A model generated the notes under the pieces. That model ran no database searches. It had not been told where the DNA came from and saw nothing but the letters and a program-made list of their open reading frames with translations. 64,000 nucleotides of DNA from contig NC_087389.1 of assembly GCF_963675165.1 (NCBI RefSeq), forward strand, positions 3,408,830 through 3,472,829. The letters are read 5' to 3'. Of this stretch, positions 37,901-49,900 are shown piece after piece (within the stretch, counting starts at the first letter, position 1; each line of letters starts with the position of its first letter). Source of the DNA: Halichondria panicea. Its lineage: Eukaryota; Porifera; Demospongiae; Suberitida; Halichondriidae. Position numbers and translations under genes: made by a program.

Positions 37901-40900
37901 GCAAGACTACTTCTAGCCTTAGTTTTTAGTGTTCTGGGTGGGAGTGGTCAACACCAGACAGTTGCTCTAACGCTGACCTAATATCAGGCCGCTCATGGTC
38001 TCAAGGCTAGCACAGGAGCACCCTCTGTTTCTCTATTAGCTAAGGTCAAGTGGTTTTAACCGCATCTATATTCACGGCCGTCTTAACATATTCGAGGCTA
38101 AGCTGCCACCAAGTAAACACATATCGTATGAGAGTAAAACCGCAAAAAAGTTGTACTTGCAGGACATTAAAACACTTGCGAGTAATTTCAAACGCTACGA
38201 AGAATATTAATACCAGACCAGTGAAATAGCAGAAAATCTACCTGTGGAAATGTGTCAATTCATGTGATTGCTTTTTGTGTATGCATTCTGTGCTCAAGCG
38301 TACACGTAGTACCTTGTGGAAGCATTCTTGTAATAATACCTGGGCACAAGAGAAACTGCTCTTTGCAGTCCATGAATCTAACTACTACCCAATGCCAAGT
38401 TCTGTGAATAGTATCAATGACCTTGTAAGGGTACCAAGAATGCACAGTCATGTAAACCAAACAACCAGCAATGCCATATATAGAAGTTTATAAACAAAAG
38501 CAGCTTACATGTGTATACAAGAGTTACAATTAGCCAACCATGGAAATGTATGAAGCAGTCATTTTGGCCTTAGTTCTTGGTGCAGTGGTTTTATTAGTTT
38601 GTGTTGTCTGTAATTGTAAGAACTCAACCCCATGCCAGCCTCAAGATAGGAGACAAGATGAAAGACAAACTCCACTGCAGCCCCAGCCTCTGATCAAACT
38701 CAACTTGAAAGACTTTATCCAGCAAAATGTGTTCTTCCCAATACAACTTCAGTCCCGGGAAAGTTCATTTGAAGATTCAACAGATGGAAGTGACCCAGTG
38801 TTTGATGGGTTCATACAGCAAGTGATATCTAAAACCGAGAACCAGAGAAAGAAGTGTCAATTTGCTTGTCTAATGCTACGAGGAGCAAGTGAAACACAAA
38901 ATCAGCGATTCACATACAAACCACATTACAGTGGTAATAGTCCCTATGTGAACGACAGTGAGGCATTCTCACCTCCAGTGGAGCGATTAAACAACTACAT
39001 CGTAGCAAGGCCCAGTAGCCAGACACATGGACAAAAACATGCAGAAGTTGTCATTCTTGATAATTTCAACACACTATGGGAAGCTTACATAAGGAAGAAC
39101 CGCAATCAAAAACCTGCAAGTATTGTTCTCTTTTCCTGGATCATTCCTTGTGTAACTTGTACCCCAAAGCTTATTAAATCCCTGTCGAAACTAGGGGTGC
39201 CTGTTCATATTGCATACACGATAACATACTACCGTGAAACTGAGCAACAGATGCAAAACAGTGTTAAAAATATTGAAAAGAGTGGGATGGTAATCGAGCG
39301 AGTGGACTATCCAGAGCGATTGCCATCCAGGCATTAACAAGACTGGCTTCACAATGCTATGCATGCACTATACGATAGTTGACACAGTAAAAACAATAAT
39401 TACTACTAGAAATTGCATGATAGCGTTATTTCTTTATACATACATGTCATTGTACACATCATCATGTACGTACTAATAATTATTATGATGCATATATCTT
39501 ATAGGTTACAGGTACATATATGGAATGCTGTAGTGAATAATAATATTAAGCAATCATTTGCTGTACATGTACATGTAATGGAATTGCATGATTACCCGTC
39601 GCCTACCTTGTATTTTTAATGAAGTATACATGACTATGAGAGGCGTGCTCTAATAAAATAGTACTCGACGATTCTGTTCATCGACATTTCAGCAATCACA
39701 CTACAGTGCACAGCCTATAGAGAGTAAAGTACCACAATAGGGGGAGTAGTTGTACTTAAATGTATCTCAAGATTGGAACATTTCTAAGAAATTGTGCTGA
39801 TACCATTTTATAGGTGAATGAATAAGCTACAACATTATTCGAAAATATTTCCCCAAAAGTTGTTGTAGTGGAAAATCATTTTAGGTGAAAATGGTGGTGA
39901 TCGTAAAGAAATGTGTGTAACGTACATCAAATATCTCCGTATAAAGTATTTCTGGACAAATTTTTTGTATCAAAAGATAGAAAATTTCAAAAACAATTAG
40001 ACCTTAGCCGATAAATTTGCTAAAAACTCGATAATTGAATCAGTTTGTGTACATATGTAAACTTTACGAAACCATGCATATGTTAGATAAACTATTCAGG
40101 AATTTGTGCCACAGTTCCCTTACCTTAGCCGACAACGATTGGTGTTTTCCATCGCTATTAAGCGATTGTCCACTATATGCTCTTAAATATAAACCACCAC
40201 ATACCCACCACCTTTGGGAATTATTTTGTGTATATGTTTTAGAGTATTCTTTTATCTACACAATGGTATCAGCAAAATTTCTTAGAAATGTTCCTTTCAC
40301 AAGATTGTACCAATAGCAGCAAATTTGCGATGTTTTACTATCTAGGCTGCAAGCACTGTACACAGAGGCTCCCTCCATACATTTGATCAATTCCATACAT
40401 TGATTGCACTCCTGATTGCAGTAATCGACTAAAAAGATCGATTGGGTAATCACTTCCACGATTGCTTCAAAGGCAATCACAATCTAACTATAACACTATA
40501 ATTATGCAAGACACTTCCTGTATATTGAGAATGCAATTGGGATATTCCAGGAAGTTGAAGACATGTACATAGTACAAATTCATAACAAGGAAACTACAGA
40601 CCACAAACAAAGATTCAGATACACAAGTAACAGCTACAAATATACTGCAATAATGTTCCTCATGATAGCAGCTACACTCCTAGTACTAGTAATATCACTG
40701 ATCATCATCTATCGCCTAGTTAAAGAGTTTCAAGACTATGAGAGTGAGGTCAGAGTTCCCGATGACATTGTGAAGATAGTTGGTGAGCACCTTTACTCTC
40801 AACAGCAGTCGATGTGTGTCCTGGAGGGAAACCAAATTCCAGCATTCACTGTGAAATCTATCATACCCAAAGCTGAGGGCCAAAGAACTAGCTGGCAATT

Positions 40901-46900: not shown

Positions 46901-49900
46901 ATGCGCATTATAACAATGACCTTTGGCCTTCAATCTTTGCATGCTAGGACACTATGACCGAGCAAGTAGCTAAATGGCGGGTCAAATAGGCTAATTGCTC
47001 GGAAATTGACCGATGACCGACTGTTATTTATACCTCTGGACTGGTTGGTTGTATTAATAATTATGTCATTTGGAATGAGTTTAAAATGGGAACCAATAAT
47101 ATCCCCTTGATATAATGGGTAAGTCCCCAAGCTAAAAAGGGGAAATCTTACCATATGCACACTGTACAGAATTTATATGGGACAAAAAATTCCCCCAATG
47201 GGATGAATGTTGTACACATTAATGCTGACATGGTGCAGAACTTTCCCTATAAATGATTATTTCGCAATGCATAAACCAGGGCTATATAAATGACCACAAA
47301 ACCACATCAAAAACAAATATCATAAAGCTGAAAAATGGACAGTTATATAAGTTCATGGAGTGCTCCTACCACAGTGAGAGAAGTATCACAAGAGACTATA
47401 GTTAGATATGTCAATGAACAAGTCATCCCGCTATTTGAGAAGCAGAGAGAAAAATCACAATTTGCAGCAATCATACTGTGTTCAAGGGACGACTGTGACA
47501 GTGAACTACAGCGTATTAAGTATTCACCATCGGATTCATTCAGACACCCACTAACAGATAGTACACAACCAATGATGCCCAACGAGTACAGTGACTTTGA
47601 TAACTATATCACTGCTAAACCATACGAAGGACACCATGCTGAGCACATACTACTTTTACAAATAGACAATTTATATGCTGCTTTCAAGTCTAAACACGGC
47701 AAACCTTACTACATAATCCTCTACACATGGATAACACCCTGTAGTAACTGTGCAAAGCTGATCATCGAAAAACTCAGCCAACAGCCGTATTCAGACATAC
47801 CCAGAGTGGTGGCTCATACCACTAACACACATAAGAAGGGAGATGATGTGCAAACAGCTAAACACAGACTGAGGGAGGCTGGGATCACAGTACTGGAGGT
47901 ACCACATCAAAAACTACATGAACCAACAAGAAGACTTCTCTTTATGTAAAAATAACCACAGAATTTTTACTGAATCTCAAAGCATCAACATTACTTTTAG
48001 AACAGTCACGCAATAACGTCAATCACTCAATATTTTTTGTCATCAATTATTATTACCGCTGAATTCATGATCATTGTAATGCTCTCTCATACATTTCTTA
48101 ATTATAACACAAGTGATGGATAACTGTCAGTGATCTACACAATTTGATTAGAATAACTCCTGCCTACGCTGATAGTGGATTGATACATCACTATTGTATT
48201 AGTTCAATTGGTGTACTGGCTAAGCAAACTTTTTGTGCAGCAATGGACATGGATGGCTGGTAAAGATATGACAATCACTTCTTTTTTTCCATTTAACTTT
48301 AAACCAGACTTAATAAACCATTTACAAATTGATTTCAACAGAAGACACAAGGGGAGACTGAAGAAGACTGGGGATCATGGTATTGTATTGGAAGTACTAC
48401 ATTACGTGAGGAGGCTACCGATACAAGAATAATTTTAAAGCATGATTGAGAAGGGGAAACTTTACCAACAACAACCTTAACTTTAGCATAGTTCATTTAC
48501 TTAATCACCTCAGTTGCATGGGTATGGCATAACTGTGAACAAAGTTTCCTCCAAACACAAGAGAGTCCTCTGGAGTCAAGACAGCATGGATCCAGCCTGG
48601 GTGGTGACATTTATAGTATATATTCATGTAGCGTTCTACTAGACACATTCATATAATTATGGAATATATAATTATGGTACTGTACATGTAATGTACAACG
48701 TAGACTGAAACAAAACATTTTGGCAGTACGTGTAGTAGGATTTTAAATTCATAACTACATGCATGTAGTCAGTATTAAGTACTATTGTATGGCACATGAA
48801 AATGTACAGACTACTGGGCCAGCAGGAACGCCTCGTTGGAATGGAAACTAGGTTCAGGGTTCAGACTGTACATGCACATCCTACAATGCACAGTGACACG
48901 TACTGCAGAGGCACACGGCAACAAACTCACCACTAGGTATGAAGAGAGTGTTTCCCTGTCTGACTCTGCAGCAGTAACATTTTGCGACCAGATCGCCAAA
49001 GAACACCTCGCTTTGACTGGATGATAGTACCCACTGCTCGTAGTGCGTCAGATTCTCCTCAGTAGGAGGTATCAAGTAGAACACTTTCTCACCCTGAATT
49101 GGTTGGAGCAGTAATAAATAAATAATATTATACAGCAATGAAAAATAAAATTGTACAAGCAACAGTTTGTTGAAATTAATGGGCACCAGCAAGCACTACG
49201 GTACGCAATGTTCATACTATTATAAACATGCAGTGCCATAATTAATTATTACATCAGAAAGGAAAGAGGAAATTAAATTGTGGCTTTGGTACAGAGGTAC
49301 GTGTAAACTAAATGTTTAAAGCACAACGTACACGTGATGTACGCATAAATATCAAAAGGTATGTGTTGATAATTATGGTAGTGCATGCTACTCGCAGAAC
49401 ACAACCATTACGTTTGTACATGTACTTCCCTCACCCAAAGGACATGGTACCAGACAGATGTGCCTCCGAAATCAACATGAAAGTCAGTGTAGCTATCCTT
49501 GACGCTCATGAGACAGTACTTCTGCACTGAGGGTCGAGAGAGGGGTGAGTCCTCAGGGAGGTCCTCAGGCCAGTGACAGTTGATCCAGTCAATCTTCCGC
49601 ACAGTCAGAGGGGGGGACACCATCTTAGATAGTCTGGAGGGAAAGGAGACTAGTAGTACTGTGCAGCAACTGCCTCTTTGAGACGCGCCAAAACATGGAA
49701 AACATGTACATGTAGTCACAATTGAGAATCAGAGCAGAGGGTCAATCTCCTAAACTGATATCACTAAAATAATGGCTTATACATATACATGTACATGTAC
49801 ATGGAAATTGAGGACACACATACATGAAATTTCACGTACTGTACATGTACATTGTACATGTATAACGACACACCCATGGCCAACTGGCATTTCCATACCC

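Follow-up and report, generated by a model that had tools for sequence, protein, structure and literature searches.

A tandem cluster of five AID/APOBEC-like deaminase genes in the sponge Halichondria panicea

The vertebrate immune system mutates DNA and RNA with enzymes of the AID/APOBEC family. Zinc-dependent deaminases of this kind are reportedly present in Porifera, and lineage-specific expansions are reported as well. The SNAD4 clade is described as identified only in sponges by literature citing Krishnan et al. (2018), and the NAD1 clade is reported from ray-finned fishes, coelacanth, amphibians, lizards and marsupials. Sea urchins (SpAIDL) and brachiopods (LaAIDL) have multi-gene families of AID/APOBEC-like proteins, some of which mutate DNA in Escherichia coli; these relatives are enriched in microbe-exposed tissues, and bacterial challenge raises the level of a sea urchin transcript (PMC5956068). 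The kind of gene is thus already known: sponge AID/APOBEC-like deaminases, invertebrate forms with tandem domains and relatives with a predicted membrane anchor have all been published. Here we describe five uninterrupted plus-strand open reading frames (ORFs) for zinc deaminases, spanning 9.4 kb (38540-47949) of a 64,000 nucleotide stretch of the Halichondria panicea genome (the window, C13:3408830-3472829 in the 131-Mb assembly), that probably represent an ancient animal branch of the AID/APOBEC-like zinc-dependent cytidine deaminases. As far as literature searches show, the new features are a long insert in the deaminase core together with an SWxxPC spacing, an Asp variant of the active site, and a separate array of two-domain genes on contig C15 whose second domains have Cys-x-Thr; we found no published description of this clade, most subscription papers lying outside the search. 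The likeness to SpAIDL and LaAIDL is drawn from published descriptions, not from sequence comparison.

The five paralogues (Table 1) are 22-47% identical to one another, genes 2 and 3 sharing 47%, and BLAST links all 10 gene pairs with E-values of 1e-8 to 1e-75 in a set of 25 sequences. A sequence-only reading of the window had proposed five tandem deaminase-fold genes, and this is borne out by the five open plus-strand frames, the Pfam and PDB profile searches given below and the BLAST links; it had also called the genes intronless, which holds for the uninterrupted frames and has its meaning within ORF reading. SpAIDL ORFs have likewise been amplified from genomic DNA (PMC5956068). Pfam models of the AID/APOBEC clade exceed their curated cut-offs in four of the five proteins, and the best match per protein has an E-value of 2.3e-7 to 6.4e-5. 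Models above cut-off include SNAD4 (2.8e-7), NAD1 (5.8e-7) and APOBEC4_like (3.8e-6) for gene 1, NAD1 (2.7e-7) and APOBEC_N (6.9e-7) for gene 2, NAD1 (8.7e-7) for gene 4, and SNAD4 (2.3e-7), APOBEC2 (2.4e-7) and NAD1 (2.1e-6) for gene 5. SNAD4 also passes for gene 2 and falls below its cut-off for genes 3 and 4; SNAD1 passes for gene 1 only, by 0.2 bits; and NAD1 (PF18778), a vertebrate clade, is the first or second match in four proteins. In the same scan dCMP_cyt_deam_1 is below cut-off in three proteins and unlisted in two. When a profile of the five proteins was compared with the PDB, the matches included APOBEC3G (E=2e-6), APOBEC2 (1.6e-4), ADAT2 (0.096) and T4 dCMP deaminase (0.16), and the nucleotide and tRNA deaminases (dCMP, CDA, ADAT) did not come ahead of the APOBECs. 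The SNAD4 and NAD1 scores are tied, and we therefore place the five proteins in neither clade.

The active-site residues are conserved in most of the cluster. H-[AS]-E is present in four genes, and these four (1, 2, 4 and 5) conform to H[AVS]E-x(24-36)-PCxxC, the motif as given in PMC5956068; to judge from the residues, they keep the zinc-binding His, the two Cys and the catalytic Glu. Gene 3 is the exception, with D-A-E and one extra residue in the alignment, so that the altered active site previously noted is real; lacking the zinc-binding His, its product is probably non-catalytic or a modified partner. The distance from this His (Asp in gene 3) to the Pro is 36, 35, 35, 35 and 34 residues in genes 1-5, slightly less than the 35-37 of the earlier reading. 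Classical vertebrate AID and APOBEC1-3 proteins carry the signature SW[ST]PC. It is absent from the five window genes, which have [ST]W-x-x-PC or, in gene 4, SH-x-x-PC; an [ST]-W ahead of the PC, earlier likened to that of AID/APOBEC proteins, is thus present in four of the five, although in an ungapped alignment the W lies one residue farther from the PC (SWxxPC) than in APOBEC3G (SWSPC). The only Cys residues conserved in all five are the two zinc ligands; further Cys after PCxxC number 0, 0, 1, 1 and 0 in the translations of genes 1-5, and the C-terminal Cys cluster of the SNADs is absent from the five proteins. The shared block reported upstream of the active site is genuine, with 13 columns invariant across the five, including Q107, A109, L113, P145, N152 and A156 (gene 1 numbering).

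Structure models were made for genes 5 and 3 only. The AlphaFold (AF2) model of gene 5, built from the five-sequence alignment (predicted local distance difference test, pLDDT, 74.3; predicted template modelling score 0.74), has the order a-b-b-a-b-a-b-a-b if a short helix at 51-55 is left out, with His-Ala-Glu at the start of helix 102-121, Pro-Cys at the start of helix 137-147, and helix 169-181 between strands 4 and 5 (157-163 and 185-188). Its top three Foldseek matches are APOBEC3C, AID and APOBEC3G, and its best structural match by VIA-align is APOBEC3H (Z 11.4, root-mean-square deviation (rmsd) 3.2, 125 residues), with about 15% identity to the APOBEC3s within the aligned parts. The model of gene 3 is of lower quality (pLDDT 62.8), and its best matches are again APOBEC3s (APOBEC3G: Z 10.3, rmsd 4.7, 139 residues). 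The deaminase order, the motifs at helix starts and these matches bear out the fold assigned earlier and, with the Pfam and APOBEC3G profile matches, the proposed relation to AID/APOBEC proteins.

The upstream block had been regarded as a novel N-terminal feature. In the gene 5 model, however, it is not a separate domain: strand 1 (AAIILC, preceded by QF) spans residues 44-49 and is separated by 41 residues from strand 2 (YITA, residues 91-94), and most of residues 70-86 have a pLDDT below 50. The block is best read, on this model, as beta1-beta2 of the deaminase core lengthened by an insert of about 30 residues. In the five window genes 56-71 residues separate QFA or QYA from the His or Asp, whereas 23-28 residues separate a strand-1-like stretch (start placed by eye) from the His in all but one of 14 C15 ORFs, the exception having 36. 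One VIA-align row pairs residues 32-189 of the gene 5 model with 7-136 of an APOBEC3H chain, whose span is 28 residues shorter. As modelled, the long core insert marks the window clade, and the evidence for it is the gene 5 model and the residue counts, because the alignment of window and C15 proteins before His-Ala-Glu is unreliable; in that alignment the NYI block falls into gaps and the insert is not visible.

A search of the genome with the NAD1 profile identified 23 places, four in the window (gene 3 was missed) and 19 at C15:4724512-4861833. All 23 are above the cut-off, two only with in-frame neighbours, and two of the C15 matches and one of those in the window contain a stop codon; the SNAD4 profile adds one more place above cut-off. 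At E<=0.1 over the whole genome SNAD4 also picks up four further places away from the two clusters, all weak and under the cut-off, but at this threshold 8 of 14 control genomes match too, none above cut-off. Pattern searches for relatives gave 32 matches in viral contigs, none confirmed, and for gene 5 27 in prokaryote genomes, none confirmed, the latter being a weak test that used exact eight-residue words. The C15 array contains at least 19 AID/APOBEC-like loci. SNAD4 is the best match for four of five C15 proteins scanned and fits them slightly better than the window proteins, and a 22-domain tree sets the window genes apart from 17 C15 rows (15 of them different) across a branch supported at 100/100. 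Eight C15 ORFs of 419-542 codons have a second deaminase-like domain, an arrangement resembling the two-domain APOBEC3 layout, whereas the window genes are single-domain. A 140-column match at 97% links a profile of six of these second domains to the first domains of C15; by eye, these six have Cys-x-Thr at the His-x-Glu site and retain P-C-x-x-C, and four other second domains have V-P-S-T-x-C in place of the P-C motif. The second domains should therefore be inactive. LaAIDL1, by contrast, has two tandem deaminase domains with active-site residues in both (PMC5956068).

It can be imagined that the window genes form an undescribed clade in an early-branching animal, with three of five products membrane-anchored, the deaminase facing the cytosol and one a pseudo-enzyme, and that together with the APOBEC3-like C15 array (one catalytic and one dead zinc domain per protein) they would make up a two-tier mutator defence independent of that of vertebrates; we regard so elaborate a scheme as doubtful.

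The sequence-only reading had also suggested an expansion under selection, and for the window this is not supported as worded. In the three of 10 window pairs for which the ratio of nonsynonymous to synonymous rates (dN/dS) was computed (1-2, 2-3 and 4-5), synonymous differences are 0.76-0.86 per site and nonsynonymous 0.31-0.45, with dS infinite in all three; synonymous sites are saturated, so the cluster is old and dN/dS has no value for these pairs. Recent expansion is seen in the C15 cluster instead, where dN/dS is 0.44-0.91 in 14 of 16 pairs (c4800/c4813, with non-homologous tails after 186 identical residues, and c4803/c4815, which are identical, were dropped). Here C15:4800501-4809838 and 4813207-4822584 form a 9.4-kb tandem duplication that includes deaminase genes, with 98.2% identity and two identical 505-codon ORFs, and reflects either a recent duplication or an assembly effect. 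A further C15 locus (4756234-4756638) holds part of a deaminase that a long Thr-His repeat interrupts shortly past the HAE; it is apparently a decaying copy.

Since all five window frames are open despite synonymous saturation, and since synonymous differences per site exceed nonsynonymous ones between genes 2 and 3 (0.82 versus 0.31), long constraint on the cluster is implied, and the open frames suggest that the copies were kept as proteins over a long time. The same facts make it highly improbable that the family is decaying, with gene 3, gene 4 and the stretch at 48320-48432 as stages of loss, even though gene 3 has an altered His, gene 4 a shorter C-terminus and the 48320-48432 stretch the look, by eye, of a C-terminal relic. 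Columns in which one gene alone departs from four that agree number 7, 0, 10, 8 and 4 for genes 1-5, and the gene 3 branch is 0.77 long against 0.19 for its sister gene 2; gene 3 has therefore changed faster than gene 2 since their duplication.

Genes 1-3 begin with hydrophobic segments (19-residue hydropathy 3.31, 3.08 and 1.92 respectively), whereas in genes 4 and 5 the peak is 1.1-1.2, lies within the core, and no hydrophobic N-terminus is present. Hydropathy suggests that the products of genes 1-3 are probably tethered to the membrane by this segment and that those of genes 4 and 5 are soluble, although by hydropathy a cleaved signal and an anchor are indistinguishable in genes 1-3. In gene 1 two acidic residues precede the segment and three basic and one acidic follow it, and these flanking charges suggest a cytosolic enzyme; in genes 2 and 3 the charges do not clearly favour either orientation. 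An anchor would not be unheard of in this family, since 6 of 38 fish SNAD1 proteins have been predicted to carry a membrane anchor at the N-terminus (PMC11004436). These N-termini could also mean that the genes are members of the secreted SNAD group or behave like it, the segments being signal peptides or secretory-pathway anchors and the enzymes extracellular. SNAD4 is the best Pfam match for genes 1 and 5 and is reported from sponges only, and the window proteins share with it and with SNAD1 the deaminase core; genes 4 and 5, however, lack the hydrophobic stretch, NAD1 scores as well as SNAD4, and the SNAD Cys cluster is missing, and we consider this origin quite unlikely.

Our preferred explanation, which we hold to be probable though by no means secure, is that the cluster is an old AID/APOBEC-like branch of polynucleotide C-to-U deaminases acting in defence, partly tethered to membranes and with gene 3 altered. 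By analogy with the sea urchin and brachiopod relatives (PMC5956068), genes 1, 2, 4 and 5 would most likely act on single-stranded nucleic acid, converting C to U, and the target would probably be invading or mobile elements, within innate defence; genes 1-3 would do so, or in the case of gene 3 assist as a non-catalytic or modified partner, at the membrane, and genes 4 and 5 in solution.

Several observations weigh against this explanation. Gene 3 passes none of the Pfam cut-offs (NAD1 6.4e-5, 23.6 bits against a 27-bit cut-off); Foldseek TM-scores by query length are 0.32-0.46 among the 50 matches listed for gene 5; and both models are in part below a pLDDT of 50. Other deaminases are near neighbours of gene 5 (archaeal tRNA deaminase 3g8q, Z 10.3; Rib2 and human dCMP deaminase, 9.9), so the fold alone does not separate AID/APOBEC proteins from other deaminases, and the gene 3 model, whose best Z is 10.3, reaches 9.0 with the unrelated 3-dehydroquinate dehydratase. 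Window and C15 profiles align over 50 columns only, with 59% probability. Finally, no retroelement hypermutation was seen in 65 comparisons among 19 pieces of 2.8 kb around the reverse transcriptase/RNase H region of Ty3-like elements (chosen for high similarity from 150 matches; 65 of 171 pairs are more than 90% identical over more than 1 kb, interrupted copies included): differences per pair are 0-10 for A/G and 0-9 for C/T, the most one-sided pair having 7 versus 0. Restriction that leaves no lasting mutations is compatible with this null result. We note that the Ty3-like long terminal repeat retroelement copies are nearly identical, many with long intact frames, and are thus recently active.

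The lack of hypermutation in young retroelements would also suit enzymes that, like APOBEC2 or ADAT, edit RNA or nucleotides in a housekeeping or developmental capacity and not in defence, as would the age of a cluster not in quick turnover and the APOBEC2 match of gene 5 (second, at 31.4 bits). A housekeeping enzyme might, however, be expected to be more conserved than paralogues as divergent as these, with one active site changed, and such a role seems to us unlikely. If the products are active, the cluster would show that an enzyme family on which antibody diversification and retrovirus restriction later drew had expanded, in part into pseudo-enzymes, in an early animal lineage. The five genes could go straight into the E. 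coli mutator assay used on the sea urchin and brachiopod relatives, by which the age of mutator immunity becomes testable.

Table 1. Deaminase-related features of the window (window coordinates)
Feature	Position	Strand	Length (aa)	Active-site residues	Other
Gene 1	38540..39337	+	265	H167-A-E, P203-C-x-x-C	Predicted N-terminal membrane segment, residues 6-24
Gene 2	40563..41414	+	up to 283	H181-A-E, P216-C-x-x-C	Predicted N-terminal membrane segment
Gene 3	41949..42698	+	249	D151-A-E, P186-C-x-x-C kept	Weaker N-terminal hydrophobic segment
Gene 4	44654..45220	+	188	H104-S-E, P139-C-x-x-C	Shorter C-terminus; no N-terminal membrane segment
Gene 5	47335..47949	+	204	H101-A-E, P135-C-x-x-C	No N-terminal membrane segment
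Possible relic or alternative 3' end/exon	48320..48432	+			Deaminase C-terminus likeness, by eye

The start of gene 2 is uncertain and may be Met1 or Met31, protein BLAST with gene 3 beginning at Met31 and a translated search reaching residues 19-20. The cluster had been drawn as extending to 48432; the genes account for it up to 47949, and the last part, an open stretch (48202-48432) downstream of a plausible splice acceptor, ends by eye like a deaminase C-terminus, with no tblastn match to 48320-48432 from the five proteins at E<=1. Only genes 1 and 5 have a TATA box within 150 bases upstream; the expectation is about 0.22 per 150 bases, and the boxes are not used as support. No Rfam family reaches its gathering score within 36000-50000. 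Downstream, at 52633-60903, are a large plus-strand ORF with cadherin repeats (11 cadherin matches) and a minus-strand ELMO/CED-12 ORF.

Elsewhere in the assembly, one of 77 papain-family matches (six were read and one searched), at L022:1459-2076, has Ser in place of the active-site Cys (SSWAF) and is silicatein-like in that respect only: against the PDB, cathepsin L is first and Silicatein alpha last among the best 60 of 87 matches. A COX1 profile search of the assembly found one fragment, covering 64 profile positions and containing two TGA codons.

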